A stretch of DNA of 64,000 bases, from assembly GCF_900091475.1 (NCBI RefSeq), contig NZ_FMIB01000002.1, positions 1,612,001 to 1,676,000 on the forward strand. The letters are read 5' to 3'. A program made the translations under genes and the position numbers. The notes beneath the pieces were generated by a model that saw nothing but the letters and a program-made list of their open reading frames with translations, had not been told where the DNA came from and made no database searches. Origin of the DNA: Micromonospora chersina (lineage in GTDB: Bacteria; Actinomycetota; Actinomycetes; Mycobacteriales; Micromonosporaceae). Below are positions 28,544 to 56,299 of the stretch, piece after piece. Position 1 is the first letter of the stretch. Each line of letters starts with the position of its first letter.

Positions 28544-31500
28544 CTAGGCGGCGACCTTCTCCCGCTCCGCAGCCCGAGCGGCGAGCCGCCGTTCCCGCTC
28601 CTGCGCGCCGATGAGGTCGTCGGGCAGGGAGTCCTCGACCTCCAGGTCGAAGCGGCGCAGCAGCCGGATCGCGAAGCCGCCCAGGGTGATCAGGATCAGG
28701 ACCAGCCCGAAGCAGACGTACGCGAAACCGATGCCGCGGCCCGGCCCGGTGCCGATCACCGCGCCCACCGACCCGGCGAGGGCCCCGCCCGGGGCGAGCA
28801 TCGGCTCGAACAGGGCGGTGGCGCCCGGCGCGAGCAGCGCGAACCCGATGGGCAGCGTGGACCAGGCGATGGTCTGGTTGAGGCTGAACACCCGGCCGTG
28901 GAAGCGCTGCGGCACCTTGACCTGCACGATGGTCGCGTAGATCGACTGCGCGGTGGTCATGGCCATCGCGAGCCATGCCATGCCCACGCAGATCATCGCC
29001 ACCGAGGCGTCCAGGCCGATGAGCACGCAGCCGATCGCGGTGCCCAGGTTGCCGATGAGCACGCCGATCATCCGCCGCTTGCGCGGGCCGCCCCAGAGCG
29101 ACATGAGCACGCCGCCGGCCACCGCGCCGACCGCCTCGGCCAGTGCCACCTGGGCCACCTGGGTCGGGCTGCCGAAGGAGAGCACCAGCGGGGTGGCGAG
29201 CACCAGCGCGGGGGCGAGGAAGATGTTGCCCAGCGCGAAGTAGCCGAGCATCAACCGGAAGCCGCGGTGCTGCCAGGAGTAGCGCAGGCCGTTGGCGATG
29301 GCCACCAGCAGCCGTTCCCGGGGCCGCCAGCCGAGCAGGTCGGGGAAGCGGACCACGGCCAGGGTGAGCACCGCCACGACGTAGCTGGCCACGTCGATGA
29401 GCAGGATGCCCTTCAGCTCGATGGCGGCGAGCAGGCCGGCCGCGAAGACCGGCATGAGCAGGGTGGCCACACCGGTGGAGAGCTGGGTGATGCCCATGGC
29501 GTGGCCGAGGTAGCGCTTCGGCACGAGCTGCGGCACCGCCGACTGGAACGCGATCCGCTGGAACGACCCGGCGACCGAGCTGAGCGCGACCAGCAGGTAG
29601 ATGTGCCAGAGCACCAGGTTGTCGGTCCACAGCAGGGCTGCCAGGACCAACTGGACGGATCCGGCCGCGGAGCTGGCCAGCATCATGATCCGGCGCCGGC
29701 TGACCCGGTCCACGATGGCGCCGGCCACCGGGAGCATGAACACGCCGCAGATCAGCGCGAGCGCCCAGAGCAGGCCGAGGTCGGCCACCGACCCGGTGCG
29801 GTTGAACAGCCAGATCGGCAGGGCGAACGCGGTCAGCGCCGACCCGGTGCTGGAGACGAGCTGCCCCACGGTGATCGCCAGGAAGCGGCCCATGCTGGGC
29901 TTGACCGTCTTGGCGGCCGGCCGCTCCGCGGCGCCGACCGCCAGCCGGTCGAGCACCGCCCAGCCGGCGTCCTCGCCCCGCGCCTGCGGGCCGAGGTCCG
30001 CGACGTCCCCGGCGACCACCGCCGGGTGCACCCGGGTGACGATCTCGGCCAGTTCCTCGGCGCGGTACTTCAGGAAGAAGTGCCCGGCCTGGTCGAGCAC
30101 GACCAGCCCGAGGGTGTCGCTCAGGAACTGCCACTCGGCGTACCGCTCGCGGTAGTAGTCGGTGACCGGGTCCTCGGAGCCGACCACCGAGATGATCGGG
30201 GCGCGCAGCTTCGTGGCCCGCTGGTCGAGCAGTCGGGTGAAGTACTCCTCCGAGGCGCGGGAGTCGGCCCGCATGTTGCTGATGATGCGGTCGGCCTGCT
30301 CCGGGTCCAGCTCGTCGGTGTCCACGCCCATCGACTTGAGCCAGCTGGCGTAGTGCTTGTTGCTGCGCAGCTGTTCGAGGCGGTTGCGGGCGGCCGCGAA
30401 GAAGCCCTTCGGGCGGGCGAACGGGAACATCGCGCCGATGTAGACGGCGTCGAGGTCCCGCCCGGCCGCCTCGACCTTGCGGGCCACTTCGGCCACGATG
30501 GCGCTGCCCACGCCGCAGTGGCCGTAGAGGGCCAGCGGGCCCTCGACGCGCTCCAGGATCTCGTCGGCCACCCGGGTGGTCAGCTCGTCGAAGGGCAGCG
30601 CGTCCTCGCTGAGGCCGACGTCGTGGCCGGGGATGGCCAGGGACCACAGCGTGTGCCCGGCCGGCAGGGCGTCGGCGAGGGGCTGGTAGACAATGGCGCT
30701 GCCGCCGCCGTACGGGACGCAGACGTAGCTGAGCACGCGCTGGGCGGCGGAGATCGGCTTGGTCAGCTCGTAGAGCAGCCGGCGCGGACCGGCCTCGGCG
30801 GCGTCGCCGGAGATGTACGCGCCCAGCTCGCGGATGGTCCGCTGCTGGAACAGGTCCATGACGCCGACGGCCCGGCCGCCCAGCTCCGCCTTGCGGATCT
30901 TCGCGACCACCTGGGTGGCGAGCATGGAGTGCCCGCCCAGGTCGAAGAAGTCGTCGTCGATGCCGAGCGTGTCGACGCCGAGCACCTCGGACCAGATGGC
31001 GGCGAGGGCCCGCTCGGTGTCGTCGCGCGGCTCGACAAGCGCCACCGACGCCTCGCGGGTGACCACGGGCGCGGGCAGCGCCCTGCGGTCGAGCTTGCCG
31101 TTCGGGGTCAGCGGCAGCGCGTCGAGGGTGACGAACGCGGCCGGCACCATGTATTCCGGCAGGGTCTCCTTGAGCGCCGCCTTCAGCGCCGCGTGCTCGG
31201 CCGGCCCGACCAGGTACGCGGTGAGCCGCTTGTCGCCGGGGCTGTCCTCGCGGACGATCACCGCGGTCTCGGTGACCCCGGGCTGCTCGCGCAGCGCGCT
31301 CTCGATCTCACCCAGCTCGATGCGCAGGCCGCGCAGCTTGACCTGGTGGTCGATCCGGCCGAGGAACTCGATGACCCCGGTGCCGTCCGGTGCGACGACC
31401 CAGCGGGCCAGGTCGCCGGTGCGGTAGAGCCGGGCGCCCGGCTCGCCGGAGAAGGCGTCGGGCACGAACTTCTCGGCGGTCAGTGCCGGCCGGCGGTGGT

Positions 31501-34033
31501 AGCCGCGGGCCAGCCCGACGCCGCCGATGTGCAGCTCCCCCGCGACCCCGACCGGGCACTCCGCGCCGGCTGGGTCGAGCACGTGCAACCGCAGGTTGGC
31601 GATGGGCGCGCCGATCGGCACGCCGGTCACCTCCGCCAGCCGGGCCGGGTCGCAGTGCCAGGCCGTGACGTCGATGGCCGCCTCGGTCGGGCCGTACAGG
31701 TTGTGCAGGCCGCACCAGGGCAGCCGGGCCGTGAAGTCGACAGCGGAGGCCAGCGGCAGCTCCTCGCCGGAGCAGATCACCCGGCGCAGCGCGGTGGCCG
31801 CCTCGACGCCCTCCTCGGCCAGGAAGACGGTGAGCATGGACGGCACGAAGTGGGCCGTGGTGATCCGCTCGGCGACCAGCAGGTCGCGCAGGTAGCCGGC
31901 GTCCTTGTGGCCGCCGGGCTTCGCGAGCACCAGCCGGGCGCCGGTGCGCAGCGGCCAGAAGAACTCCCAGACCGAGACGTCGAAGCTGGCCGGTGTCTTC
32001 TGGAGCACCGCGTCGTCGGCGCCGAGGCCGTACGTCTTCTGCATCCAGTCGAGCCGGTTGACGATGCCCCGGTGGGTGTTCGGCACGCCCTTGGGCCGGC
32101 CGGTGGAGCCGGAGGTGTAGATGACGTACGCCAGGTGTTCCGGGCCGGCGGTGGGCGCCGGGTCGGTCGCCGGCTGGTCGGCCCAGACCGTGGCGTCGTC
32201 GAGGGCGAGCACGGTGGCGGCGGTGGCCGGCAGCACGTCCCGCAGGTGCTCCTGGACCAGCACCACGGGCGCGTCCGCGTCGGTGACCATGAAGGCGAGC
32301 CGGTCCGCCGGGTACTCCGGGTCCAGCGGCAGGTAGGCGCCGCCGGCCTTGAGCACGCCGAGCAGGCCGGCGACCAGCTCGACGGAGCGTTCCGCGCAGA
32401 CACCGACCAGGGTCTCCGGGCCGACGCCGGCGGCGCGCAGCCGGTGCGCGATCCGGTTGGCCGCGACGTTCAGCTCGGCGTACGTGAGGCTGCGGCCCTC
32501 GATGGTGACCGCCACGGCGTCCGGGGTGGCGGCGGCCCGATCCTCGACGGGGCCGTGCAGCGTCTGGTCGCGCGGGAAGTCCGCGGCCGTGTCGTTCCAC
32601 AGGCCCAGCAGCGCCCGCTCGTCGGCGGGGAGCAGCTCCAGCCGGGAGACCGGGGTGTCCGGCGCGGCCACGACGGCGGCCAGCAGGATGGTCCACCGCC
32701 GGGCCATCCGCTCGACGGTGTCCCGGGTGAACAGGTCGGTGTTGAAGACCAGCTTGCCCCAGAGCCCGTCGACGGTCTCCACGGCGTGCAGCTCGAAGTC
32801 GAACCGGGTGGCCCGCAGTTCCATGGGGGTCCACTCGAAGCTGACCTCGTCGCTGCGGGACACCCCGCGGAACCGGCCCATCTCGTAGTTCTGGAGCACG
32901 AACATGGTCTGGAACACCGGGGAGCGGCTCACGTCGCGGGGCAGCCCCAGCTCGTGCACGACCTTGGCGAACGGCACCTCGGCGTGCTCGAAGCCGTCCA
33001 GCACGCTGCGCCGGGTGCGCTCCAGCAGCTCGACGAAGGTGGGATCGCCGCCCAGCTCGGCGCGCAGCGGCAGCATGTTGATGAACATGCCGACGACGTT
33101 CTCCAGCTCCGGCGCCGACCGGCCGGCCACCGAGGCCCCGACGGCGAAGTCCTCCTGGCCGGCGTGCCGGGCCAGCAGCACCTGGTACGCGGCGAGCAGC
33201 GTCATGAACAGGGTGCCGCCGGTGGCCCGGGTGAGCGCGTTGAGCGCCTCGGTCTCCGCCGGGTCGAGCTGGAACTCGACGAAGTCGCCCCGGTAGGTCT
33301 GGGTGGCCGGGCGGGGCCGGTCCAGCGGCAGTTCGAGGGGGGTGATCCCGGCGAGGCGCTGCTTCCAGTAGTCGACGTGCGCCCGGGCCTGCGGGCCGTC
33401 CAGCTCCTCGGCCTCCCAGACGGCGAAGTCGCCGTACTGGATCGGCAGGGCGGGCGGCTCGCCGCCCCGGTAGAGGGTGATGAGGTCGCGCAGCAGCACG
33501 TCCACCGACCAGCCGTCACCGACGATGTGGTGCTGGCCGAGGAACAGCACGTGGTCATCGTCAGCCAGCCGGATCAGCAGGGCCCGCAGCAGCGGCCCGT
33601 CGGCCAGGTCGAACGGTTCGGCGGCGGCCGCGTCCACGAGCGCCTGCGCGCTCGCCTCGTCCGGCGCGTCCACGATGGTCAGCGGCACCTCGACGGACTC
33701 CTCCACCACCACTGTGGGGCGGCCGTCGGAGTCGGCCGGGAAACGGGTGCGCTGCGACTCGTGCCGGGCGCTGAGCGCGGCCAGGGCCGCGCGCAGCGCC
33801 TCGACGTCGAGCGGGCCGCGCACCCGCAGCGGCACCGCGATGTGGTACGCCGCCTCGCCCGGGGCGAGCTGGTCCATGAACCAGACCCGTTCCTGGGCGT
33901 ACGACAGCGGCACCTCGGCGCCGGCGGGCCGGGGGGTGATCCGGGCCGCCGGGGCGGCCTGGCGGGCGCGCAACCGCTTCGCGATCAGCGCCTGCCGGGC
34001 CGCCTCGCGGGCCGGGTCCTTCAGGTCGGTCAT
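28544..34033 (-). CDS. NRPS termination module C-A(Ser)-T-TE fused to an MFS exporter
   Basis: An 1829-residue protein. A C domain (about 40-470) has HHIVGDGWS near 169. The A domain (about 485-990) has [11 protein letters not shown] near 646. Its pocket residues, read from the FDVSVW, AHFVPSML, VICSGEEL and AAIDV segments, give DVWHISLID plus Lys, the serine code. A carrier domain carries DLGGHSM near 1031. The thioesterase (about 1090-1340) has Cys1173 in YGHCGVG where Ser is usual, with Asp1288 (GSEDP) and His1318 (AGHFF). From about residue 1380 an MFS transporter of roughly 12 spans continues in frame, with no ribosome-binding site at the junction. The start overlaps the upstream stop by one base. 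Release and export of the peptide would be physically linked. Confidence 0.9.
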   Translation of the reverse strand: MTDLKDPAREAARQALIAKRLRARQAAPAARITPRPAGAEVPLSYAQERVWFMDQLAPGEAAYHIAVPLRVRGPLDVEALRAALAALSARHESQRTRFPADSDGRPTVVVEESVEVPLTIVDAPDEASAQALVDAAAAEPFDLADGPLLRALLIRLADDDHVLFLGQHHIVGDGWSVDVLLRDLITLYRGGEPPALPIQYGDFAVWEAEELDGPQARAHVDYWKQRLAGITPLELPLDRPRPATQTYRGDFVEFQLDPAETEALNALTRATGGTLFMTLLAAYQVLLARHAGQEDFAVGASVAGRSAPELENVVGMFINMLPLRAELGGDPTFVELLERTRRSVLDGFEHAEVPFAKVVHELGLPRDVSRSPVFQTMFVLQNYEMGRFRGVSRSDEVSFEWTPMELRATRFDFELHAVETVDGLWGKLVFNTDLFTRDTVERMARRWTILLAAVVAAPDTPVSRLELLPADERALLGLWNDTAADFPRDQTLHGPVEDRAAATPDAVAVTIEGRSLTYAELNVAANRIAHRLRAAGVGPETLVGVCAERSVELVAGLLGVLKAGGAYLPLDPEYPADRLAFMVTDADAPVVLVQEHLRDVLPATAATVLALDDATVWADQPATDPAPTAGPEHLAYVIYTSGSTGRPKGVPNTHRGIVNRLDWMQKTYGLGADDAVLQKTPASFDVSVWEFFWPLRTGARLVLAKPGGHKDAGYLRDLLVAERITTAHFVPSMLTVFLAEEGVEAATALRRVICSGEELPLASAVDFTARLPWCGLHNLYGPTEAAIDVTAWHCDPARLAEVTGVPIGAPIANLRLHVLDPAGAECPVGVAGELHIGGVGLARGYHRRPALTAEKFVPDAFSGEPGARLYRTGDLARWVVAPDGTGVIEFLGRIDHQVKLRGLRIELGEIESALREQPGVTETAVIVREDSPGDKRLTAYLVGPAEHAALKAALKETLPEYMVPAAFVTLDALPLTPNGKLDRRALPAPVVTREASVALVEPRDDTERALAAIWSEVLGVDTLGIDDDFFDLGGHSMLATQVVAKIRKAELGGRAVGVMDLFQQRTIRELGAYISGDAAEAGPRRLLYELTKPISAAQRVLSYVCVPYGGGSAIVYQPLADALPAGHTLWSLAIPGHDVGLSEDALPFDELTTRVADEILERVEGPLALYGHCGVGSAIVAEVARKVEAAGRDLDAVYIGAMFPFARPKGFFAAARNRLEQLRSNKHYASWLKSMGVDTDELDPEQADRIISNMRADSRASEEYFTRLLDQRATKLRAPIISVVGSEDPVTDYYRERYAEWQFLSDTLGLVVLDQAGHFFLKYRAEELAEIVTRVHPAVVAGDVADLGPQARGEDAGWAVLDRLAVGAAERPAAKTVKPSMGRFLAITVGQLVSSTGSALTAFALPIWLFNRTGSVADLGLLWALALICGVFMLPVAGAIVDRVSRRRIMMLASSAAGSVQLVLAALLWTDNLVLWHIYLLVALSSVAGSFQRIAFQSAVPQLVPKRYLGHAMGITQLSTGVATLLMPVFAAGLLAAIELKGILLIDVASYVVAVLTLAVVRFPDLLGWRPRERLLVAIANGLRYSWQHRGFRLMLGYFALGNIFLAPALVLATPLVLSFGSPTQVAQVALAEAVGAVAGGVLMSLWGGPRKRRMIGVLIGNLGTAIGCVLIGLDASVAMICVGMAWLAMAMTTAQSIYATIVQVKVPQRFHGRVFSLNQTIAWSTLPIGFALLAPGATALFEPMLAPGGALAGSVGAVIGTGPGRGIGFAYVCFGLVLILITLGGFAIRLLRRFDLEVEDSLPDDLIGAQERERRLAARAAEREKVAA

Positions 34034-37000
34034 CAGCTGCTTTCCTCTTCCGCCGCGAGCAGCGCGGCGACCTCGCTGTCGGAGAGCCCGTCGAGTTCCG
34101 CGGCGATCCGCTCCTCGATCTGGGCGGCCAGGTCCGCCACCACGGGGCTGCTGAACAGCGCCCGCATGGGCAGGTCGACGTCCACCTCGGCGCGGATCCG
34201 GGCCATGGCCCGCATGCCGCGCAGCGAGTTGCCGCCGAGGGTGAAGAAGTCGTCCAGGGCGCCGACCTTCTCCACCTGGAGGATCTCGGCGTACACCTCG
34301 GCGACCAGGGACTCGGCCTCGGTGCGCGGCGCCACGTAGGCGTCCTCGGCCGGAGCGGCGGCGGCCGGTGCGGGCAGCGCGGCCCGGTCCAGCTTGCCGT
34401 TCGGCGTCAGCGGCAGCGCGTCGAGCCGGACCAGGGCCGCCGGCACCAGGTGCGCGGGCAGTTCCCGGGCCAGCTCGGCGCGGACCGAGTCCTCGTGGGC
34501 GGGGCCGACCAGGTAGCCGACAAGGGTCGGCTCGCCGCCGTCGGTGCGCACCGCCGCGGCGGCCGCCCGGACGTCCGGGTGGGCCAGCAGGGCGGCCTCG
34601 ACCTCGCCCAGCTCGATCCGCATGCCCCGCACCTTGACCTGGTCGTCCCGGCGGCCCAGGTAGTCCAGGCTGCCGTCCGGCCGCCAGCGGGCCAGGTCGC
34701 CAGTGGCGTACATCCGCGACCCGGGCGGGCCGTACGGGCAGGGCAGGAAGCGCTCGGCGGTGAGGCCGGGACGGCGGTGGTAGCCGCGGGCGAGCTGCGC
34801 GCCGGTGACGTACAGCTCGCCGACCACGCCCGGCGGCACCGGCTGGAGGGCGGCGTCGAGCAGCAGCGCCCGGGTGTTCCAGGTGGGCGTGCCGATCGGC
34901 ACCGGCCCCGGCGGGACGGGCTCGCCCGGGGCGATCCGGGCGGCCACGCAGCCCACGGTGGCCTCGGTCGGGCCGTACTCGTTGACCACCGCCACGTCCG
35001 GGTGGGCGGCCCGCCAGGCGGCGAGCTGCTCGCCGGTCAGCGCCTCGCCGCCGATCACGAGGTCGGCGGTGGGCGACAGCTCGCCGTCGAGCAGCGGCAG
35101 GTGGCTCGGGGTGACCTTGAGGAAGGCCGGCCGGCCACCGGCCCGCGCGGCCGGCTCGTCGACGGCGGCGAGCCGGACCGTGCCGCCGGCGGTGAGGGTG
35201 CCGAGCAGGCCGGTGACGGTGAGGTCGAAGGAGACCGGCGAGTGCAGCAGCGCGACGCCGGCCAGCCCCGGGTAGGTGTGCCGGGCCCAGGCCAGGTAGG
35301 CGGTCACCGCCCGGTGCTCCACCACCACGCCCTTGGGCCGGCCCGTCGAGCCGGAGGTGTAGAGCACGTACGCCGGGTGCCCGGGGCGCAGCGGGCTCCG
35401 CCGGTCGGCGTCGGTGAGGTCGCCGTCGGGCTGGTCCGCGCCGAGTTCCCCGTCGAGGACCAGCGCGTCGCCCGGCACCAGGGCAGCGGTGTCCGGGGTG
35501 GCCACCACCAGGGCCGGCGCGGCGTCCTCCAGCAGGTAGGCGATCCGCCCGGCCGGGTAGCCGGTGTCCACCGGCACGTACGCGGCGCCGGACTTCAGCA
35601 CGGCGAGCATCGCCACCACCAGCTCGCAGGAGCGGGGCAGGGCGAGCGCCACCCGGGTCTCCGGGCCGGCGCCGCGGGACACCAGCAGCCGCGCCAGCCG
35701 GTTCGCGGCGGTGTTCAGCTCGGCGTACGTGAGCGGCACGCCGTCGCAGACCAGCGCCGTGGCGTCCGGGGTGGCCGCGGCCTGCCGCTGCACCTCGTCG
35801 ACCACGGTGGCCGCCGGCACCTCGTGCGCGGTGTCGTTCCAGGCGCCCAGCACCAGGTCCCGCTCGGCGTCGGTGAGCAGCGGCAGCGCGGCGACGGTGC
35901 GCTCCGGGTCGGACACGGCGGCAGTGAGCAGCGCGACGTACCGCCGCACCACCGTCTCGGCGGTGGCCCGGTCGAACAGCGCGGTCCGGTAGACCAGCCG
36001 GCACTCCCCCGCCGTGATGTCGAAGGCCAGGTCGTCCTTCGTGGTGCCCAGCTCGACCGGGTCGAGGCCGGAGTCCGGGATGTAGTTCAACGCGGTCTGG
36101 AAGATCGGCTGCACCGACGGGTCCCGCTGCGGGTCGACCGCCTCGACGATCTTCTGGAACGGGGTCTGCCCGTGTTCCATGGCGTCGACCAGACCGTCGC
36201 GGACGCGGCCGAGCAGCGCCACGAAGGACGGGTCGCCGGAGACGTCGCAGCGCAGCGCCACCGGGTTGACGAACATGCCGATCAGCGGGGCCAGCTCGGG
36301 GGTGTCCCGGCCCGCCGTGGAGACGCCGACCACCACGTCGCTGTCACCGGAGATCCGCGACAGCAGCGCAGCGAAGCCGGCCAGCAGCACCATGTACGGC
36401 GTGGCCGTCGCACCGGCGGCCAGCCGGCCGATCCGGTCCAGCAGCCCGTCGGGCAGGTCGAAGCGCACCTCGTCGCCGGCGAAGCCGAGCTGGGCGGGGC
36501 GGGGCCGGTCCAGCGGCAGGTTCGTCACCGGCGGCGCGCCGGCCAGGTGCCCGGTCCAGAACGCGAGCTGCCGGTCCAGTTCCGCCCCGGCGAGCTGGTC
36601 GCGCTGCCAGACCGCGAAGTCGGCGTACTGGATGGGCAGCTCGGGCACGGCGGGCTCGGCGCCGGTCTGCGCGGCCGCGCAGAACGCGGTGAGCTCGGCG
36701 TGGAACAGCACCGCCGAGTGGCTGTCGAAGACGGCGTGGTGCACCACGAAGACCAGCGCCCACGAGTCGTCGATACGGACCAGCCGGGCCCGCCACAGCG
36801 GCGGCGTGTCCAGCGGGATCGGGGTGCGGGCCAGCTCGGCCCGGATCTCCTCGAACGCGGCCAGCCGCTCGGACTCGGGCAGGTGGCGCAGGTCGGTGGT
36901 GGGCAGCGGTACGGGCTCGTGGGCGCGGACCACCTGCACCAGCGCGCCGTCGTCCTCCCGCAGGTGGGTGCGGAGCGCCTCGTGCCGGGCCACCACCCGG

Positions 37001-37152
37001 TTGACCACGTCGGTGGCCGTGTCGGCGTCGACGCCGGCGGGGAAGCGCCACGGGATGGACACGTTGAACACCGGCGAGCCGGCGTCGAGCTGGTTGGCCA
37101 TCCACACCCGCTCCTGGGCGAAGGAGGCCGGGAAGGTCCACTCCTGGCTCAT
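34033..37152 (-). CDS. NRPS module C-A(Asn)-T
   Basis: A 1039-residue protein. The C domain (about 5-430) has HHAVFDSHS near residue 139, where the usual Gly after Asp is Ser, so condensation may be altered. The A domain has [11 protein letters not shown] near 600. Pocket residues from [20 protein letters not shown] and [11 protein letters not shown] give DLTKVGEVG plus Lys, one change from the published asparagine code. The T domain is FTLGGNSLR near 973. Its start overlaps the MbtH stop by four bases (ATGA) and its stop overlaps the next start by one base. The adjacent SyrP-like oxygenase could hydroxylate this carrier-bound residue. Confidence 0.92.
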
Positions 37153-37337
37153 GAGTGGGCCTCGCGTACGGAGCGGGGGCGCATGTCGGTCCAGACCGTG
37201 TCGATGTGGGACAGGCACTCCTCGCGGGTGCCGGCGAAGCCGGTGTCGTGCCAACCGGCGGGGAGGTCCCGGTCGGCCGACCAGATCGAGTACTGCTCCT
37301 CGTCGTTGCGGACGACCAGGAATCGGGGTTCGGCCAT
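37149..37337 (-). CDS. MbtH-like protein
   Basis: A 62-residue MbtH-like protein with the family's invariant [20 protein letters not shown] and the three conserved Trp positions, ending [10 protein letters not shown]. Such proteins bind adenylation domains and are needed for their folding or activity. The gene lies one base beyond the dioxygenase stop region and overlaps the next NRPS gene by four bases. One or more of the four A domains in the operon is likely to depend on it. Confidence 0.95.
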
Positions 37338-37338
37338 C

Positions 37339-38292
37339 TCAGTTCACTCCAGGGGTGTCGGGGGTGTGCGGCTCGGCCATCGCCACGGCGATCTTGCGGG
37401 GGCCGGTGAACGGCTCCCGGCCGTGGGCGGCGGTCATGTTGTCCACCACCAGCACGTCGTCACGCTGGTAGTCGAAGCGGACCGTGGCCGCCCGGTAGGC
37501 GGCGCGCAGGTGGTCCATGACGTCGGCGGGGATCTCGCCGCCGTCGCCGTAGTAGGTGTTCGACGGCAGCCCGTCGGCGCCGAACATCGCCAGCAGCCCT
37601 TCCTGGTAGTCCGCCGGCAGGGTGCTCACGTGGAAGAAGGTGGCGTGGTTGAACCAGCGCGGGGTGTCCGAGCCGGGCCGGTGGTGCACCACGTCCCGCA
37701 CCGCCCGGGTGCGCAGCCCGTCCTTGCCGACCCACTCCACGGTGATCCCGTTGGCCGCCGCGTACGCCTCGACCTCGGCCCGGTTCTCGGTGTTGAACAC
37801 CTCCTGCCAGCGGGTGCCGAAGTCGCCGTGGAAGTTGCGCACCAGCATCCAGCGCCGGCGGACGAACTCCTCGCGCACCGCCGGGTCGATCAGCTCGTAC
37901 ACCCGGCGGACGTCGGCGAGCGGGGTGGCGCCCTGGGTCTCCGGCGCCGTGATGCAGTAGAAGAACAGGGTCAGCGGCCAGCGCGCCTGGTACGAGTTCT
38001 CGTTGTGCAGGAAGATCTCCTCGTCCGGCGGGTAGTCGGTCGAGGTGTACACCCGGCCCTTGATGGAGTGCCGGGGCGAGGAACGCTCGGTGTAGGTCAG
38101 CGGTTCGCCGGACAGGGCGCGGACCACCCCGTCGAAGCCGTCCACCCCGCCGACGTCGAAGCCGCGGAACAGCAGCCCGCCGTGCTCGACGAGGGTGGCG
38201 CGCAGCTCGGCGCGCCGGGCCCCGATGAGGTCGGTCAGCGCCCGGCCGTCGTTCTCGACGACCACCGGAAGCGTGGCGATCGTGTCGCTCAT
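37339..38292 (-). CDS. SyrP-like Fe(II)/2-oxoglutarate dioxygenase (TauD/TfdA)
   Basis: A 317-residue dioxygenase. His96 and Glu98 in FLHNENSYQ form the HxE part of the iron triad, seen in SyrP-type enzymes in place of HxD. The distal His is in NMTAAHGREPF near residue 290, followed by an Arg for 2-oxoglutarate. STDYPPDEEI and FFYCITAPETQGATPLADVRRVY match the family that hydroxylates Asp/Asn on carrier proteins. With the Asn-specific module next door, 3-hydroxylation of Asn is the simplest role. The ATG at 38292 follows AGGAG. Confidence 0.88.
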   Translation of the reverse strand: MSDTIATLPVVVENDGRALTDLIGARRAELRATLVEHGGLLFRGFDVGGVDGFDGVVRALSGEPLTYTERSSPRHSIKGRVYTSTDYPPDEEIFLHNENSYQARWPLTLFFYCITAPETQGATPLADVRRVYELIDPAVREEFVRRRWMLVRNFHGDFGTRWQEVFNTENRAEVEAYAAANGITVEWVGKDGLRTRAVRDVVHHRPGSDTPRWFNHATFFHVSTLPADYQEGLLAMFGADGLPSNTYYGDGGEIPADVMDHLRAAYRAATVRFDYQRDDVLVVDNMTAAHGREPFTGPRKIAVAMAEPHTPDTPGVN

Positions 38293-38318
38293 GATGCGGT
38301 GTCTCCTGTTCTTCGTGG

Positions 38319-43778: not shown

Positions 43779-43825
43779 CGGGGTTGTCCTTAGCTCACGC
43801 GGTACGTCGGGGAGGGGTTGCGGCG

Positions 43826-47326: not shown

Positions 47327-49626
47327 CCGTGGTCTCCCCGGTGCTCGGTCGGGTCGGTGATCTGGAGGCGCAGTTCGCTGACGTAGCCGCGGCCCTGCGC
47401 GTCGGTGACCCAGGACCGGTCGGGCGCGGGCAGCAGCTCGGAGACCACGATGGGGACGTCCGGGCTGGTGCGGTGGGCGGCGTCCACCATGGCGCAGAGC
47501 GACTGCGCGTAGAGCGGGCCGGTCAGGTCGACGTAGCAGGGCTTGATCTCGGTGCCCACCTTCACGAACACCCGCTCGGGCAGCCCGGCGGCCGCCCGCC
47601 AGCGGCGTACGGCGAGGTAGCGGGCCGTCTCGTCGGTGTGCCCGGCCAGGCCGCACCCGCCCGCCGTGCTGCGCCAGGTGCGGCGGGCCACCACCAGCCG
47701 GTCGATGGTGATCCGGGGCGTGTGCGGGGCCGGATCGAGCAGCTTGAAGGCGTCGATCAGCAGCGAGTCGAGCAGACTGGCGAAGACCTCCATGAGCGAC
47801 CAGCGCCCGCCGTCGGGGAAGACCGCGACGAGCTGGCCGGCGACGACCTCAACGGTGACCGCGGTGGCCGGCACCAGCTGGTCCGGGTCCGCGCCGTGCG
47901 CGCTGTCGATGCCGAGCTGGCGGTCGGCGGGCCCGGTCAGCCCGTACGTGGTGCGGGTGGTCCGGCGCGGGTAGCTGTCCGGCCACAGGAGCCGCAGCCG
48001 GGCGGGGCCGAGGTCGGCGTCGCCGGCGGCCCGCAGCGCGGCCGGGTCGCGGTGGAACGGGCCGAACACGGCGCTGTCGTAGGCGACGTGGGCCGGGTGC
48101 AGCTCGCCGAGCACGAGCAGGAACTCGCCCCGCCGGATCGCCTCCGCTGACGCCGCGCTGAGCTGGACGTCCGGGTTGTGCAGCCGGGCCGACGGCCAGC
48201 CGGGGCGCTCCGCGGGAAAGAGCTGCCGGACCCGCTCGGCCAGGTCCTCGGCGCGCAGGAGCAGCTCCGCCTGGTCGGCGGGCAGGTCGCGCAGGCCGAA
48301 CAGCTCCGCCCACCGCTCGGTCAGGGCGGCGCCGGCCCGGCCGATGGGGCCCTCCGGGGAGACGAGCGTCCCCTGGGCCAGCGACCAGAGGTCGGCCAGC
48401 CGCACCGGGCCGTCGGCGGCCAGCTCGTCGTGCAGCTCGGCGAAGAGTTCGGCGCACCGGGCGGCGACCTCCCCGGTGAACCACCGGGCGGTCTGGAGCA
48501 CCAGCGCCAGCGGGCCGGCCAGCGCGTCCAGGACGGCCGAGCCGACCGTGAACTCCAGGTCCCGGGCGGTCTCCTCGTAGCAGACGGTGCGGCCCACGTA
48601 CATCTGGCCGCCCTGCCGGGTGGCCGGCCGGCCGGTGACCGCCGTGAACTCGGTGTTCAGCGCGGCCAGGGCGGCGCCGAGCCGGTCCGGGTCGCCGGCG
48701 GCGGCGGCCACCGCGTCGCGGGCGGCCCGGAGCCGGTCGAAGCCGGCCGCCACCTCGGCCCGGACGCCCTCGTCACCGATGAGCGCGATCCGCTCGAGGA
48801 GCACCCGCTCGGCCTCGGGGCTGACCGGCAGGTTGGCGCCCCAGATGAGCTGGCCGCGGTCCGCCCACCGGTCGAGCAGCAGGTAGACGTCGTCGACGCC
48901 GTGCACCTCGCCGTCGGCGTGCAGCCGCTCGGCCAGCGCGACCGCGGGCGTCCGCCCGTCGCAGGCGGCGAGCAGCCGGGCCTCGGTCGGGGTCAGCGCG
49001 ATCGGCGGGTGCAGCGGCCAGCGCAGCTGGCGCCCCTCGACGGTGAGGTGCGGTTGCAGCGCGGGAGCCCACCAGCGTCGCACCGCCAGGTCGTCACCCA
49101 GCCGGTCGGCGTACGCGATCAGCGCCCACGCCTCGAAGAACACGTGCCGCCGGTTGACCAGCGACGGGCCGGGCGACAGCCGGACACCCGGCTCCGCCGG
49201 GTCGAAGGTCCCCCAGCAGACCGGCCCGAAGAAGCCGATGGTCTCCGCCTTGCCGCAGTACCGCTGCCAGTAGCGCAGCAGGCTCAGTTCGCGCTTGCGC
49301 CGGCGGACGTTGCGCACCTCCGGATCGGTGCGGAGCAAACCGTCGAGCGCGACGAGCATGTCCGGGTTCTGCCAGGTGACCGCCTCGCGCAGCAGCGGGT
49401 CGGCGGCGAGCTCGTTCACCACTGCGGACGACTCGGCGAACGCCTCGCGCAGCACCTTGTCGAGCAGTTCCGGGCCGCTCCCGCCGGTCAGCACCGCGTC
49501 GGCGACGGCCGCGGCCTCCGGCGCGGCGAACCGGTCGAGCCCCGCCGCCGGGAACCCGGCGGTGCGCAGCACCACGTCCCGCCAGACCGACCAGCCGGTC
49601 TCCCCGAGTGGCAGCAGGTGGCTCAT
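47323..49626 (-). CDS. Lantibiotic dehydratase-type glutamylation domain protein
   Basis: A 767-residue protein of the Lant_dehydr_N family. It has the characteristic N-terminal PLGETGWSVWRDVVLRTAGFP, a central YWQRYCGKAETIGFFGPVCWG and TARDLEFTVG, and the closing LPERVFVKVGTEIKPCYVDLTGPLY. In LanB enzymes this domain uses glutamyl-tRNA to glutamylate a peptide Ser/Thr; in PEARL enzymes it adds an amino acid to a peptide C-terminus. The C-terminal elimination domain of LanB is absent. No precursor peptide or LanC lies nearby, so here it may act on carrier-bound intermediates. The ATG overlaps the upstream stop by four bases. Confidence 0.85.
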   Translation of the reverse strand: MSHLLPLGETGWSVWRDVVLRTAGFPAAGLDRFAAPEAAAVADAVLTGGSGPELLDKVLREAFAESSAVVNELAADPLLREAVTWQNPDMLVALDGLLRTDPEVRNVRRRKRELSLLRYWQRYCGKAETIGFFGPVCWGTFDPAEPGVRLSPGPSLVNRRHVFFEAWALIAYADRLGDDLAVRRWWAPALQPHLTVEGRQLRWPLHPPIALTPTEARLLAACDGRTPAVALAERLHADGEVHGVDDVYLLLDRWADRGQLIWGANLPVSPEAERVLLERIALIGDEGVRAEVAAGFDRLRAARDAVAAAAGDPDRLGAALAALNTEFTAVTGRPATRQGGQMYVGRTVCYEETARDLEFTVGSAVLDALAGPLALVLQTARWFTGEVAARCAELFAELHDELAADGPVRLADLWSLAQGTLVSPEGPIGRAGAALTERWAELFGLRDLPADQAELLLRAEDLAERVRQLFPAERPGWPSARLHNPDVQLSAASAEAIRRGEFLLVLGELHPAHVAYDSAVFGPFHRDPAALRAAGDADLGPARLRLLWPDSYPRRTTRTTYGLTGPADRQLGIDSAHGADPDQLVPATAVTVEVVAGQLVAVFPDGGRWSLMEVFASLLDSLLIDAFKLLDPAPHTPRITIDRLVVARRTWRSTAGGCGLAGHTDETARYLAVRRWRAAAGLPERVFVKVGTEIKPCYVDLTGPLYAQSLCAMVDAAHRTSPDVPIVVSELLPAPDRSWVTDAQGRGYVSELRLQITDPTEHRGDHG

Positions 49627-52600
49627 CGGTGCTCCGTTCCCTGGGTGTCCACGAGGTGCAGGCGCAGCTCGCTGAAGTAGCGGCGGCCCGCGCCGTCGGG
49701 CACCCACGCCTGGTCGGTGGTGGGCAGCATCTCGCTGACGGTGAGCGAGACGCCGTCGCCGCCGTCGACCCGGGCGGCCCGGACCATGGCGCAGAACATG
49801 TTGGCGAACGCCGGGCTGGCCAGGTCCACGAAGCAGGGCTTGGTCTCGGTGCCGAGCTTCACGTAGACCTGCTCGGGCAGGCCGAGCCGGCGGCGCCAGT
49901 CGCGGACGGCCAGGAAGCGCTGCCGCTCGCCGGTGGCCGTCGCCAGGCCGCTCTCCCCCACCGTGGTCCGCCAGGTCTGCCGTGCCACGACCAGCCGGTC
50001 GAGGGTGATCCGGGGCGTGTACGGCGCGGCGGCGACCAGCTTGAAGCCGTCCACCGCGTGCGCGCTGAGCAGCTCCGCGAAGACCTCGGTGAGGGGCCAG
50101 CGCTGCCCGTCGGAGGCGGTGGCCACGAGCCGGCCGTCCACCTCGGTGACGGTGAGGTCCACGGTGGGCAGCACCCGGGCCGGCTCGGCGCCCGGCGCGT
50201 CCTGGAACGCCAGGTGCCGGTCGGTGGGCCCGGTCAGCGACTCGGCGGTACGGCTGGTCCGGCGCGGCCACTCGGCCGGGAAGAGCAGCCGGACCCGCCG
50301 CTCGCCCAGGTCCTCGGCCAGGGCGGTGCGTAGCCGCTCGACCTCGGGGTGGGACGGGGTGAAGACCGCGCAGTCGAACGAGGACCAGGCGGCGTGCAGC
50401 TCGCCGAGCACCACTGTGTACTCGCCCCGGGCCAGCGCCGCCGCGTCGGTGGCGCAGATCTGCAGGTCAGGGCTGTGCATCACGGCGTTGGACCAGGTGG
50501 GCCGGGCGCCGGGGAAGGCCGCGTCGACCCGGTCGGCCAGATCGGCCGCCCGCAGCCGCACGTCGGTGGTGCCCGGCGGCAGCGCGTCCAGCCCGAACAG
50601 CCCGGCCCAGCGGGCGGCGAAGTCGGCGGCGACCGCGTCGACCGGCCGCTCGCCTCCGCCCCAGAACAGGCCCTGGGCCAGGAACCACAGGTCCGCCAGG
50701 GCCACCGGGCCGGTGCCGGCCTCGGCGCGCAGCTCCTCGTAGAGCCCGCGGAACACCTCGCCGTACGCCTCGGCCAGGGCGTTGCCCATCCAGCGGGCGG
50801 CCCGCAGCAGCACGTCCAGCGGGGTGGCCAGCTCGGCCAGCAGCGGCGCGCCGAAGACCACGTCGAGGTCGCGGGCGCTGTCCTCGTAGCAGATGGTGCG
50901 GCCGGCGTACATCTGGCCGGCGCGGCGCACGGCGGGGACGCCGGTCAGCTCGGTGAAGGTGGCGTCGAGCGCGTCCAGGGCGGCGCGCAGCCCCACCGGG
51001 TCGCCGGCCGCCTCGGCCACCGCGTCCCGGGCGGCGCGCAGCCGGTCGAACCCGGCCCGGGCGGCGCTCCGGGCGGCCTCGTCGCCGATCCCCTCGATCC
51101 GGTCGGCCAGCACCGCCTCGGCGTCGGGGCTGACCGGCAGCGCGGCGTCCCAGCTGATCAGTTCCCGCTCCACCAGCCGGTCGAGCAGGGCGTACCCGTC
51201 CTCGGGGCGGCGCAGCCCGATGGCCGGGTCGGCCACCAGGTCGGCGGCGCAGCGGCGGCCGTCGGCGGCGGCGAGCAGCGCCGCCTCCACCGGGTTCAGG
51301 GTGAGCGGCGGCCGGCCGGGGCGCAGCACGGTCCGGTCCCGGACCGCGAGGTGCGGGCGCAGCACCGGCGGCCACCACCGGCGGACGGCCAGGTCGGCGC
51401 CGACCCGCTGGGCGTACGCCGACAGCGCCCAGGACTCGAACCAGACCCAGCGCCGGCGGGTGAGCCGCCCGCCGGGACGGATCCGGACGGTCTCCGGCTG
51501 GTCCGGGTCGACGGTCACCCAGCAGCTCGGGCCGAAGAAGCCCACCGTCTCGTTCTTGCCGCAGTAGCGCTGCCAGTACTTGAGCAGCGCCCGCTCCCGG
51601 TCCCGCCGCCGCACGTTGCGGGCCGCGTCGCCGCCGCCGCGGGCCAGCCCGTCCAGCGCGACCAGGGCACCCCGGTTCTGCCAGGTGACCGCCTCGCGCA
51701 GCAGCGGGTCGGTGGCCAGCTCGCTGATCCGCTCGGCGGCGCCGCGGACCGCCTCGTCGAACTCCTTGTCGAACCGGTCCTCGCCCGCGCCGGTGGCGAG
51801 CAGCTCGTCGGCCGCCGCGGCGGCCCGGGGCGCGGTGAACAGGTCCAGGCCGTCGGCGGGGAATCCGGTGGTCCGCAGAATGGCGTCGCGCCACACCGAC
51901 CACGCGGTGTCGCCGAGCGGCACCCGGTGCGCGCCGCCGACGGTCCCGCGATCGGCGGCGCGCACCGGGAAACTGTGCGCGACCGACCCGCCAACCAGGA
52001 CGGTCCCGCGATCGGCGGCGCGCACCGGGAAACTGTGCGCGACCGACCCGTCTGCGCCCGTGCTCGCGGCGCCGGCGCCCTCCGCGCCGGTGGTCCCGGC
52101 GGCGAGCGCCCCGGCCAGGTCGGCGCGGATGAGGGCGAGCAGCTCGGGAAGCTGGTCGTGCAGGAAGAAGTGGCCGCCGGCCAGCTCGTGCAGGGTGAAG
52201 CCGGCGGCGGTGTGTTCGGCCCAGGCGGCGTTCTGCTCGTGGGTGACCGCCCGGTCGTCCCGGCCGCTGAACGCGACGATCGGCACCGGCAGCGGCTCGC
52301 CGGGCACGTACCGGTAGCCGTCCACCCGGCCGAAGTCGGCACGCAGCAGCGGCAGCAGCAGTTCCACCAGCTCCGGGTGCGCGAACAGCTCGGCGGGGAG
52401 GCCGCCGCCGTCGGCGAGGCGGCGCAGCAGCTCGTCGTCGTCGGCCCGGGACAGCCCGTCGAACAGGCCGGGCGCGGTGACGTGCGGGGCGCGGGCGCCG
52501 CCGACGTAGAGCCGCAGCGGCAGCGCCCGGCCGGTCCGGCGCAGCTCGCGGACCACCTCGAAGCCGAGCCGGCCGCCCATGGAGTGGCCGTAGAGGGCGT

Positions 52601-52832
52601 ACGGGCGGTCGGCCCGGGCGGCGATCGCCTCGGCCACCTCGGCGACGTCGAAACGCGGATCCTCGTTGATCCGGTTCTCCCGGCCGGGCAGCTGCACCGG
52701 GAGCACCTCGATGTCCGGACCGATCCCCTCCTGCCAGCGCCGGAACGCGCTCGCGCCGGCGCCGGCGTAGGGCAGGCAGAACAACCGGACCGGAGCCTGG
52801 GGTCGGCTTCCGGCGGAGACGAACCAGTTCAC
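49623..52832 (-). CDS. Type II thioesterase fused to LanB-type glutamylation domain
   Basis: A 1069-residue fusion. Residues 1-250 are a type II thioesterase of the RifR/GrsT kind: LFCLPYAGAGASAF, YGHSMGGRLGFEV with Ser near 82, SGRDDRAV for Asp and GGHFFLH for His. Residues about 250-305 form a Gly/Ala/Ser linker holding two copies of GSVAHSFPVRAADRGTV. From about 305 a LanB-type domain continues to the end (VPLGDTAWSVWRDAILRT, RYCGKNETVGFFGP, GLPEQVYVKLGTETKPC), parallel to the next gene's product. The GTG overlaps the A-T-KS stop by four bases. Type II TEs clear misloaded carriers, so the fusion links carrier editing to tRNA-dependent chemistry. No stop separates the parts. Confidence 0.85.
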   Translation of the reverse strand: MNWFVSAGSRPQAPVRLFCLPYAGAGASAFRRWQEGIGPDIEVLPVQLPGRENRINEDPRFDVAEVAEAIAARADRPYALYGHSMGGRLGFEVVRELRRTGRALPLRLYVGGARAPHVTAPGLFDGLSRADDDELLRRLADGGGLPAELFAHPELVELLLPLLRADFGRVDGYRYVPGEPLPVPIVAFSGRDDRAVTHEQNAAWAEHTAAGFTLHELAGGHFFLHDQLPELLALIRADLAGALAAGTTGAEGAGAASTGADGSVAHSFPVRAADRGTVLVGGSVAHSFPVRAADRGTVGGAHRVPLGDTAWSVWRDAILRTTGFPADGLDLFTAPRAAAAADELLATGAGEDRFDKEFDEAVRGAAERISELATDPLLREAVTWQNRGALVALDGLARGGGDAARNVRRRDRERALLKYWQRYCGKNETVGFFGPSCWVTVDPDQPETVRIRPGGRLTRRRWVWFESWALSAYAQRVGADLAVRRWWPPVLRPHLAVRDRTVLRPGRPPLTLNPVEAALLAAADGRRCAADLVADPAIGLRRPEDGYALLDRLVERELISWDAALPVSPDAEAVLADRIEGIGDEAARSAARAGFDRLRAARDAVAEAAGDPVGLRAALDALDATFTELTGVPAVRRAGQMYAGRTICYEDSARDLDVVFGAPLLAELATPLDVLLRAARWMGNALAEAYGEVFRGLYEELRAEAGTGPVALADLWFLAQGLFWGGGERPVDAVAADFAARWAGLFGLDALPPGTTDVRLRAADLADRVDAAFPGARPTWSNAVMHSPDLQICATDAAALARGEYTVVLGELHAAWSSFDCAVFTPSHPEVERLRTALAEDLGERRVRLLFPAEWPRRTSRTAESLTGPTDRHLAFQDAPGAEPARVLPTVDLTVTEVDGRLVATASDGQRWPLTEVFAELLSAHAVDGFKLVAAAPYTPRITLDRLVVARQTWRTTVGESGLATATGERQRFLAVRDWRRRLGLPEQVYVKLGTETKPCFVDLASPAFANMFCAMVRAARVDGGDGVSLTVSEMLPTTDQAWVPDGAGRRYFSELRLHLVDTQGTEHR
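51923..52050. repeat. 52-bp direct repeat plus perfect 18-bp inverted repeat
   Basis: Positions 51939-51990 recur exactly at 51999-52050 (period 60). The arm CCCGGTGCGCGCCGCCGA (51923-51940) pairs perfectly with 51952-51969 across an 11-base loop. The block encodes the linker between the thioesterase and LanB parts of the fusion and ends at a possible GTG restart (51923). Confidence 0.9.
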
Positions 52833-55800
52833 CGCGGACCTTTCTGCACGGGGTCGATCCAGTACCGCTGGCGCTGGAACGGGTAGGTGGGCAGGCCGGT
52901 GCGCCGGACCGTGCCCTCGGGGTGCAGGGCGTCCCAGTCGACGTCCCGCCCGGCGACCCAGTCGGCCGCCAGCTCGCGCAGCGGGCCACCGTCGCCCGTG
53001 ACCCGGGCGTCGGTGTCGAGCAGCGCGTCCAGTCCGGCAAGCGCGCCGGGCAGGTCGGCGGCGACCACTGCGGCCCGGTGGGCGAAGGCGCGCCGGCCGA
53101 GCGCCAGGGTGGCGGCCACGTCGGGCAGCGCCGGGGCGTCGCCGGCGAGGTGGGCCCGCAGCCGGGCCAGCGCGGCCCGCAGCGCCGCCGGGGTACGCGC
53201 CGACACCGGCAGCAGCCACGGCCCGTCACCCGGCGGGTCGGCCGGGTCGGCCGGCGGCGGCTGCTCCACCACGACGTGCGCGTTGGTGCCGCCGAGGCCG
53301 AAGGCGCTGACCCCGGCCACCCGGCGCGGCCCCTCGGGCCAGTCGCGCGCCTTGGTGGGCACGTAGAACGGGCCGGCCGACAGGTCGATCTCCGGGTGCG
53401 GGCGGGTGAAGTGCAGGTTCGGCGGGATCACCCCGTGCCGCACGGCGAGCACCGCCTTGATCAGTCCGGCGATCCCGGCGGCGGCGTCGAGGTGGCCGAT
53501 GTTGGTCTTCACCGAGCCGAGCGCGCAGGTCTCGGCGGGCGCGGCGCCGGCGTACACCTCGTGCAGCGCGGCGACCTCGATGGCGTCGCCGAGCGGCGTG
53601 CCGCTGCCGTGCGCCTCGACCAGGCCGACCTCGCCGGGTGCGACCTCGGCGGTGGCGAGCGCGTTGGCCACGGCGGCGGCCTGGCCGGCCGGCCCGGGCA
53701 CGGCGAAGCCGGCACGGTCGGCGCCGTCGTTGGTGACCGCCCAGCCGGGCAGGACGGCGTAGATCCGGTCGCCGTCGGCCTGCGCGTCGGCGAGCCGGCG
53801 CAGCGCGACCACCCCGACGCCGGAGCCGAAGCCGGAACCGTTGGCGCCCTCGTCGAAGGCGCGGCACCGGCCGTCCGGGGAGGCCAGCCCGCCCGGGGTG
53901 TGCCGGTGCCGCGGCCAGGTGACGGTCACCCCGCCGGCCAGCGCGAGGTCGCACTGGTAGTCGGCGAGGCTCTGCGCGGCGAGGCAGACCGCGACGAGCG
54001 AGCTGGAGCAGGCGGACTGCACGGCCAGGGCCGGCCCGGTGAGCCCGAGCCGGTAGGCGACCTGACCGGGCAGGTGGTCGGTGAACTGCCGGCCGATGAG
54101 CCGGGCCTCCCAGTCGTCCGGGTCGACGTCGCCGACCACGGCCGGGTTGTCCATGAGGTGGAACAGGAAGTACCGGTTGGCGGAGGTGGCCGAGTAGACG
54201 CCGACCAGGCCGGGGAAGCGGTCCGGGTCGTGCCCGGCGTCCTCCAGGGCCTCCCAGGCGGTCTCCAGGAACAGCCGGTGCTGCGGGTCGGTCCGGGCAG
54301 CCTCGTCGGCGCCGAACGAGAAGAACCCGGCGTCGAAGTCGGCCACCCCGTCGAGCCGGCCGACGGCCCGCACGTGCCGGGGGTCCGCGCGCAGGCCCGG
54401 CCCGACGCCGAGGGCGGCAAGCTCCTCGTCGGTGTGCTCGTGGACGGAGTCCACGCCGGTGCACAGGTTCCACCAGAAGGTGGCCACGTCCGGCGCGCCG
54501 GGGAAGCGGCCCGCGAGGCCCACCACGGCGATCTCGTCGCCGGTGTACTCGCGGGCCGCGGCGGCGGGCGCGGCCGGCGCGGGCAGCACCGGGGCGCGGA
54601 CCGCGTCGGGCGGGGTGTCGAGCAGCGCCGCCTGGGCGGCCACCGTGGGGTGGTCGAAGAGGCGCAGCAGGGGCAGGCGTACGCCGAACCGCTCGGCGAG
54701 CCGCTGCTGCACCTGGCCCAGCAGCAGGGACTGCCCGCCGACGTCGAAGAAGCTGTCGGTGCGGCCGACCGCCGGGCGGCCGAGCACGGCGCACCAGATG
54801 TCGTGCACGGCCCGCTCGGTGTCGGTGGCGGGCGCCTCCCCGCCCGGTGCCTCGGCCGCCGGGTCGGGCAGCGCCCGCTCGTCGACCTTGCCCGTGACGG
54901 TGAGCGGGAACTCGTCGAGCAGCACGACGGCGCGGGGCAGCGCGTACCCGGGCAGCGCGGCGGCCAGCGCGGCGCGCAGCGCGGCCGGGTCGGGCCGCCG
55001 GTCGCCGGCCGGGCGGGCGTACGCCAGCAACTCGCCGTCGCGGGCGATGGCGCGTACGCCGGCCACGCCGGGCTGGGCCGCGAGCACGGTCTCGATCTCG
55101 GTCAGCTCGACCCGGTGCCCGCGCACCTTGACCTGCCGGTCGAGCCGGCCGAGGCAGACCAGCTCGCCGCCGGGCAGCCGCCGGCCGAGGTCGCCGGTGC
55201 GGTACGACCGCACCCCGTCGGCGTCCACACCGAACCGGTCGCTGTCCTGGTTGAGGTAGCCGGGGGCGAGGTGCCGGCTGCGGACCACCAGCTCGCCGGT
55301 GTCCGGGGCGAGGTCGACCCGGTAGCCGGGGAACGCCGTGCCGATCGGCAGCGGGCCGGTGGCGGACGGGTCCACCGTGGACAGCGGCAGCGCGTGCCGG
55401 GCCACGAAGGTCATCTCGGTGGCGCCGTAGCCGTTGACAAGCACGCAGTCGGGGGCGAACCGGTCCCGGCCGCGGACCGCGTCGGCGTACGTGGCCTGCT
55501 CGCCGCCGAGCAGCACCACCCGGACCGCGTCGAGCCGCCGATCCCCGAGGGTGTCCAGCAGGTACCGGTAGACGGTGGGCGTGCAGTGCAGCACGGTGGC
55601 CCGGTGCCGGTCGAGCTGCTCGACGGCGTGGGCGAGCCCCTGCCGGCGCAGGTCGACCGGGACGACGGCGGCGCCGGTGAGCAGCGCCGGGTAGAGGTCG
55701 GGGATGGCGGCGTCGAAGCTGAACGAGGCGAGCAGGCTGAGCCGGTCGGCCGGGCCGATCGCCAGGGCGTCGATCTGGTTGTCGACCACGTGCGCCAGGT

Positions 55801-56299
55801 TGCGGTGGGTCTGCCCGACCGCCTTGGGCACGCCGGTGGAGCCCGAGGTGAACAGCACGTACGCCAGCGCGTCGGGGTCGACCGGCACGGGCCGCAGCGG
55901 GGCGGGCGGCACCTGGTCGAGCGGCACCACGGTCCGCCCGTCGGCGAGTGCCCGGGCCAGCTCGCGGTGCTCGGCGGCGCAGGCGACGGCGGCCACCCCG
56001 GCGGCGGCCAGCATGTGGCGCAGGCGGTCGACCGGGAAGCCCGGGTCCAGCGGCACGTACGCGCAGCCGGCGGCCAGGGCGCCGAGCAGCGCCGCGACGG
56101 TCGGTGCGCCGTGCGCGGTGAGCAGGGCGACGCGGTCGCCGGGTCGGACGCCGGCGGCGACGAGCGCGGCCGCGTGCCCCCCGGCCGCACCGGCCAACTC
56201 GGCGTAGGCGACCTCGTGGGTCTCGCCGAGCAGAGCCGGACGTTCACCGTGTTGCGCCGCGACCTCGCCGAAACGATTGATGATCATCGGCTGTGCCAT
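52829..56299 (-). CDS. NRPS-PKS loading protein A-T-KS without AT
   Basis: An 1156-residue protein, first in the operon. The A domain (about 10-490) has FTSGSTGVPKA near 153. Pocket residues (FDAAIP, HCTPTVY, LLGGEQA, NGYGATEMTFV) keep the amino-binding Asp but match no code I know. The T domain has FDVGGQSLL near 520. The KS (about 583-1010) has QSACSSS with Cys near 763, EAHGSGT near 898 and NIGHLDA near 933, so it looks active. After the KS the KS-AT linker and the post-AT LPTYPFQRQRYW tail remain, but the ~300-residue AT between them is missing, and there is no ACP. Malonyl loading must come from elsewhere. The ATG follows a 19-codon reading frame by one base. Confidence 0.9.
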   Translation of the reverse strand: MAQPMIINRFGEVAAQHGERPALLGETHEVAYAELAGAAGGHAAALVAAGVRPGDRVALLTAHGAPTVAALLGALAAGCAYVPLDPGFPVDRLRHMLAAAGVAAVACAAEHRELARALADGRTVVPLDQVPPAPLRPVPVDPDALAYVLFTSGSTGVPKAVGQTHRNLAHVVDNQIDALAIGPADRLSLLASFSFDAAIPDLYPALLTGAAVVPVDLRRQGLAHAVEQLDRHRATVLHCTPTVYRYLLDTLGDRRLDAVRVVLLGGEQATYADAVRGRDRFAPDCVLVNGYGATEMTFVARHALPLSTVDPSATGPLPIGTAFPGYRVDLAPDTGELVVRSRHLAPGYLNQDSDRFGVDADGVRSYRTGDLGRRLPGGELVCLGRLDRQVKVRGHRVELTEIETVLAAQPGVAGVRAIARDGELLAYARPAGDRRPDPAALRAALAAALPGYALPRAVVLLDEFPLTVTGKVDERALPDPAAEAPGGEAPATDTERAVHDIWCAVLGRPAVGRTDSFFDVGGQSLLLGQVQQRLAERFGVRLPLLRLFDHPTVAAQAALLDTPPDAVRAPVLPAPAAPAAAAREYTGDEIAVVGLAGRFPGAPDVATFWWNLCTGVDSVHEHTDEELAALGVGPGLRADPRHVRAVGRLDGVADFDAGFFSFGADEAARTDPQHRLFLETAWEALEDAGHDPDRFPGLVGVYSATSANRYFLFHLMDNPAVVGDVDPDDWEARLIGRQFTDHLPGQVAYRLGLTGPALAVQSACSSSLVAVCLAAQSLADYQCDLALAGGVTVTWPRHRHTPGGLASPDGRCRAFDEGANGSGFGSGVGVVALRRLADAQADGDRIYAVLPGWAVTNDGADRAGFAVPGPAGQAAAVANALATAEVAPGEVGLVEAHGSGTPLGDAIEVAALHEVYAGAAPAETCALGSVKTNIGHLDAAAGIAGLIKAVLAVRHGVIPPNLHFTRPHPEIDLSAGPFYVPTKARDWPEGPRRVAGVSAFGLGGTNAHVVVEQPPPADPADPPGDGPWLLPVSARTPAALRAALARLRAHLAGDAPALPDVAATLALGRRAFAHRAAVVAADLPGALAGLDALLDTDARVTGDGGPLRELAADWVAGRDVDWDALHPEGTVRRTGLPTYPFQRQRYWIDPVQKGPR

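Follow-up and report, generated by a model that had tools for sequence, protein, structure and literature searches.

What two proteins of the LanB (lantibiotic dehydratase) family might be doing inside a thiotemplate assembly line is the question raised by a locus of Micromonospora chersina. The window analysed here is a 64,000-nucleotide stretch of the 6.68 Mb genome, with a G+C content of 75.4%; positions 28544-56299, coordinates that we confirm, hold a hybrid nonribosomal peptide synthetase-polyketide synthase (NRPS-PKS) operon of nine genes, all on the minus strand and running from 56299 to 28544. Written as adenylation (A), carrier (T, ACP), condensation (C), ketosynthase (KS), thioesterase (TE) and other Pfam domains, their order is A-T-KS; TE-LanB; LanB; A-T-C-T; KS-AT-KR-DH-ACP; TauD dioxygenase; MbtH; C-A-T; C-A-T-TE-MFS. 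Every domain named in a first-pass annotation of this DNA is present, and that list had left out the TE and MFS domains that end gene 9. Judged by their sequence signatures, both LanB-type proteins of this hybrid system are probably ligases of the peptide aminoacyl-tRNA ligase (PEARL) type, for which “LanB” is a misnomer. The involvement of tRNA is a reasonable idea and in principle not a new one; the novelty lies in where the proteins occur, as a tandem of TE-PEARL and PEARL within an assembly line that is common, uncharacterised and free of C domains of the ureido type.

The first of the two proteins is encoded by gene 2 (49623..52832, minus strand; 1069 aa from a GTG start) and fuses a TE with a GHSMG motif to a PEARL-type LanB N domain; the second, LanB3, is the product of gene 3 (47323..49626, minus strand; 767 aa). 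They share 54% identity and are the only PF04738 matches of the genome at E <= 0.001. Pfam finds Lant_dehydr_N in both and an elimination domain in neither, and PF14028, the model for that domain, is likewise absent beside them and within the operon. The genome's sole PF14028 match (L016) covers half the model and lies isolated, about 550 kb from the operon, with no PF04738 match near it in the genome profile search. A study of pyrroloiminoquinone biosynthesis (PMC11117183) names residues of the ATP site, in TglB numbering Asp542, Glu564, a His, Glu801 and Arg803, that are present in PEARLs and absent from a split LanB. Their LanB3 counterparts, matched by motifs and a 22-residue spacing, are D486, E508, H510, E751 and R753. 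All five residues occur in both window proteins, in 27/27 LanB-like proteins from the fetched neighbourhoods and in SnaE of threopeptin biosynthesis, and the set occurs in none of the 30 fused lantibiotic dehydratases compared; a wider, overlapping sample has them in 128 of 129 proteins, the exception stopping at a contig edge. The fold comparison covered LanB3, whose AlphaFold model (mean pLDDT 85) matches TbtB, NisB and MibB. The window proteins thus share N-terminal domain fold and Pfam family with the class I lantibiotic dehydratases and split LanB proteins, and differ from the class I enzymes in lacking an elimination domain and carrying PEARL-type active-site residues. Because both consist of the N domain only and hold five residues that are missing as a set from the 30 fused dehydratases, they are most likely amide ligases that use aminoacyl-tRNA, not dehydratases.

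SnaE is the only characterised case that we found among NRPS/PKS clusters with dehydratase-annotated genes. About two thousand such clusters contained genes with the lantibiotic dehydratase annotation in June 2023, some of them fused to TE or T (PMC11212132; Yu and van der Donk 2024). As the same paper describes, a C domain with the motif EHHXXHDG forms a ureido link in an NRPS-PKS product, and SnaE adds Thr to the carboxylate that this leaves. Together with the five residues, this precedent favours by homology the aminoacyl-tRNA use that the first-pass annotation had proposed. The sna pathway and the window operon have in common an NRPS-PKS cluster, MbtH, a TE and a PEARL carrying all five residues. 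Whereas the published sna pathway combines the SnaO dehydrogenase with a single free-standing PEARL and a C domain that forms a ureido link (PMC11212132), the window operon has no ureido motif, two PEARLs of which one is fused to a TE, a PKS module with KR and DH, and Asn and Ser modules. Positive controls for the ureido motif came from two sources: 5 of the 75 named loci have it, and so does the cluster of genome G739 that we take to be sna of Stackebrandtia nassauensis (A-T-C-A-T, KS-AT-T, MbtH, TE, LanB), where the motif occupies its published position, SnaA residue 744. A quick maximum-likelihood tree, supported by SH-aLRT values only, puts the two window PEARLs and 16 relatives in one clade (98), and SnaE groups apart from it with PEARLs that adjoin ureido-type C domains.

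Common in Micromonospora, this type of operon brings a PEARL together with a C-T module that has no A domain, and no ureido-forming C domain accompanies them. Relatives of the C domain and second T domain of gene 4 (C4-T4b) were found at E <= 1e-100 in 68 of the 160 genomes of the genus, eight of which have a second such place, and the LanB places, among the matches listed, fall in the same 68 genomes; LanB places were picked at about 50% identity or more, which puts genomes with weak or short matches (e.g. G097, G058, G140) outside the count. When otherwise identical clusters free of LanB were sought, as the first-pass annotation had suggested, LanB lay within 12 kb of C4-T4b at 75 of 76 places, again among the matches listed, the remaining place being in G031, an assembly of some 780 contigs with its LanB on other contigs. 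LanB relatives occur in 20 of the 394 genomes of a class-wide sample at E <= 1e-10, some in other contexts. Operons of this type recur in further genomes, so the nine-gene set is not a chance grouping.

Thirteen operons of this type, the window included, were compared. A-T, KS, LanB, A-T-C-T and a KS-AT-KR-ACP module are constant in all 13; DH is found in 11, the two without it being the sister-type operons G033 and G143. A1-T1, free-standing or fused to KS, is likewise present in 13/13, with an A1 code of the form D[M/A][T/P]H[L/V]GGF[A/V]K throughout and an A4 code that varies. The second T of the A-T-C-T protein, which has no A domain of its own in the window, keeps its serine motif and has no A domain behind it in any of the 13. 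The C4 motif is [V/F/L/A]HH[A/S]VFDG in 13/13 operons and LHHAVADG in G553, and KS1 keeps its Cys and first His in every operon, the second catalytic His being replaced by Asn in nine and retained in the window. A TE is fused to or adjoins LanB in 11 of the 13 operons, and the terminal TE is in frame with an MFS domain in all ten for which the terminal module was fetched; the nucleophile is Ser in the PEARL-adjacent or fused TE (11/11) and Cys (GHC) in the terminal TE (10/10).

How might the PEARLs take part in assembly? From PEARL chemistry we infer the use of ATP and tRNA: a free carboxylate would be phosphorylated with ATP, the amino group of an aminoacyl-tRNA would attack the acyl phosphate to form an amide bond outside the C domains, and the tRNA would then be cleared. 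What the sequences themselves show is the operon with its genes and domains, the catalytic signature, the clade, the predicted fold and the conservation; the order of steps around the reaction is inferred, as are the carboxylate and the amino acid that enter it. The A1-T1/KS unit may be freed by, or passed via, the TE domain of the gene 2 protein, which would either release the carboxylate or cut the tRNA ester. The freed early unit would be joined to a tRNA-borne residue and then accepted by A-T-C-T; one malonate would be added next by the PKS module, giving a vinylogous link, Asn and then Ser would follow, and the terminal TE-MFS would release and export the product. We place the PEARL step early, in the vicinity of A1-T1 and of the carrier that has no A domain, because the terminal TE is tied to MFS in 10/10 operons, and this placing is a tentative judgement, somewhat less likely to be right than wrong. 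It is rather improbable that the TE-PEARL acts as a tRNA-to-carrier loading station, the PEARL linking the acid from A1 to an aminoacyl-tRNA and the TE of the same protein passing the acyl-aminoacyl unit from the tRNA ester to the A-less second carrier of A-T-C-T; if it did, one assembly-line residue would come from the translation pool instead of an A domain. Aminoacyl shuttles of TE fold of the SyrC/CmaE type use a Cys nucleophile to carry a residue from a separate A-T to a T that lacks an A domain. Of these features, a separate A-T and an A-less T are present here; the PEARL-linked TE carries Ser, and Cys belongs to the terminal TE. A tRNA-borne residue may enter the thiotemplate line, as the first-pass annotation had raised, or may instead be joined to a free carboxylate; the use of tRNA is already published for sna. 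Enzymes of the L/F transferase family are known to acylate amines and not to extend a carboxylate. One of them, using tRNA, replaces the C domain of a C-less NRPS in the livipeptin pathway of Streptomyces lividans, as outlined in PMC10548850; the window operon likewise has a probable tRNA-using enzyme, of the LanB family instead.

Other accounts of these proteins have to be weighed against a PEARL role. True tRNA-Glu-dependent dehydratases, glutamylating Ser/Thr to yield a dehydro-residue, would suit the PF04738 annotation and the presence of a Ser-type module; with PEARL residues in both proteins, no elimination domain in the operon and the one partial PF14028 match so distant, this is the least credible of the alternatives and highly improbable. 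Scarcely better placed is a chain reversal as in sna, in which the C domain of the A-T-C-T protein couples two amino acids in head-to-head fashion and the PEARL extends the carboxylate that remains. The outline gene set is indeed that of sna (A-T-C, PKS, MbtH, TE, PEARL), but the C4 motif differs from EHHXXHDG in all 13 operons and in G553, and the 14 C4 rows make up a separate clade (support 100), apart from the one in which nine of ten ureido-motif C domains, two of them identical, cluster (support 96). A role after assembly is unlikely, though less so: the terminal TE would free an acid to which the PEARLs append one or two tRNA-borne residues at the C-terminus. Addition at that end is classical PEARL chemistry (PMC11117183), and two PEARLs could append two residues; however, the in-frame MFS of the terminal TE points to release as the final step, and the PEARL-fused TE is not the terminal one.

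An explanation with about an even chance is that the A-less second carrier is loaded in trans by an A domain, A4 acting twice or A1, with the PEARLs uninvolved. It has a precedent in capreomycin biosynthesis, where the A-less module CmnI is described as loaded by the A domain of another module (PMC12400406), and A1-T1 would be available for this in 13/13 operons. Trans-loading is compatible with a PEARL function of the LanB-type proteins and is the simpler account of that site, but by itself it leaves the pairing of LanB with C-T at 75/76 places unexplained, a pairing for which shared pathway membership would account. Several observations weigh against the two proteins being PEARL-type ligases at work in this line. 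The EHHXXHDG motif is found in none of the three window C domains, and because this is the motif that makes the free carboxylate of SnaE, a substrate analogous to SnaE's is missing. Identity of the window PEARLs to SnaE is only 32-36% over 451-458 residues, in a separate clade; the equivalence of LanB3 residues to the TglB positions was set by motifs and spacing; and the residues could be retained for some different tRNA reaction. Moreover, no LanB-adjacent TE lies in the fetched stretch of the sister-type operons G033 and G143, and some relatives are without the second LanB, TauD, MbtH or the Asn module.

The NRPS/PKS skeleton is already in print, in three papers, as an orphan Micromonospora cluster for x-x-y-mal-Asn-Ser or the like (PMC5075396, PMC8698034, PMC9967187). 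PMC9967187 gives the same domain string (A-PCP-KS, TE, A-PCP-C-PCP, KS-AT-KR-DH-ACP, C-A(Asn)-PCP, C-A(Ser)-PCP-TE) and PMC8698034 almost the same one, and Table 5 of PMC5075396 gives the backbone X-X-?-C2-Asn-Ser only; the term “lantibiotic dehydratase” has no occurrence in the texts of these three papers. TE-LanB relatives come from M. okii and NBRC 110037, two of the strains behind the published orphan cluster. We know of no product for this x-x-y-mal-Asn-Ser cluster, and a description of the LanB arrangement was not found in the literature on LanB, Micromonospora and NRPS-PKS or on PEARLs and NRPS, a coverage mostly outside subscription papers. The first-pass annotation recognised no known pathway with this gene set; no characterised cluster with it was found in the literature searched, but the skeleton had already been listed as an orphan. 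Two questions can be put sharply to this operon type: what a PEARL does where no chain reversal takes place, and whether tRNA supplies residue “y” of the orphan product.

The remaining genes surround the two PEARL genes on the same minus strand. Gene 1 (52829..56299, 1156 aa; A-T-KS) has the A1 code DAPHLGGFVK by motif alignment and a KS with Cys-His-His, and gene 4 (43826..47326, 1166 aa; A-T-C-T) has one A, two T and the C motif VHHAVFDG. The PKS module of gene 5 (KS-AT-KR-DH-ACP; 38319..43829, 1836 aa) has KR before DH; the usual order in PKS modules is DH before KR. Gene 6 (37339..38292, 317 aa) encodes a TauD/TfdA-family dioxygenase that is possibly an Asn beta-hydroxylase, and gene 7 (37149..37337, 62 aa) an MbtH-like protein. 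The C-A-T protein of gene 8 (34033..37152, 1039 aa; C motif VHHAVFDS) has the A code DLTKVGEVGK, which we take to specify Asn, and the C-A-T-TE-MFS protein of gene 9 (28544..34033, 1829 aa; C motif QHHIVGDG, a TE with YGHCGVG, MFS in frame) has DVWHISLIDK, presumably Ser. Calls published for the orphan cluster type (PMC8698034, PMC9967187) agree on Asn for gene 8 and Ser for gene 9. With GTG starts assumed at 52832 and 47326, the four junctions between genes 1 and 5 each overlap by 4 bases, a 26-base gap precedes the TauD gene and a 1-base gap the MbtH gene, and the last two junctions, MbtH/C-A-T and C-A-T/C-A-T-TE-MFS, overlap by 4 bases and 1 base; the earlier description of nine same-strand genes joined mostly by 1- or 4-base overlaps is thus accurate (6 of 8 junctions).

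The closest relatives of the TE-LanB protein are Micromonospora proteins, the top one, 95% identical, from Micromonospora chersina. In the window protein the linker from TE to LanB holds a 60-base tandem duplication (about 51950-52040; 20 residues), and several close relatives are shorter proteins. The named loci that contain PEARL-type genes number 75, and A or KS lies within the fetched stretch in 68 of them. A frequent arrangement, with two PEARL-type LanB genes and a free-standing A gene, occurs in 30 of the 75 (L099, L120-L159, mostly Streptomyces); of these 30, 26 also have a free-standing carrier and 27 have MbtH, and we know of no product for the arrangement. A carrier followed by a PEARL in one frame is seen in L169-L174, as A-T-C(ureido)-A-T-PEARL in G056 and G691, C-A-T-PEARL in G704, G032 and G567, and A-T-PEARL in G103, and L108 has KS-AT-KR-ACP-PEARL in one frame, with a weak ACP score. 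Some Micromonospora carry a sister operon type as a second one (L057-L060; G033, G143); it has a TE-less LanB, and a further LanB is encoded on the other strand.
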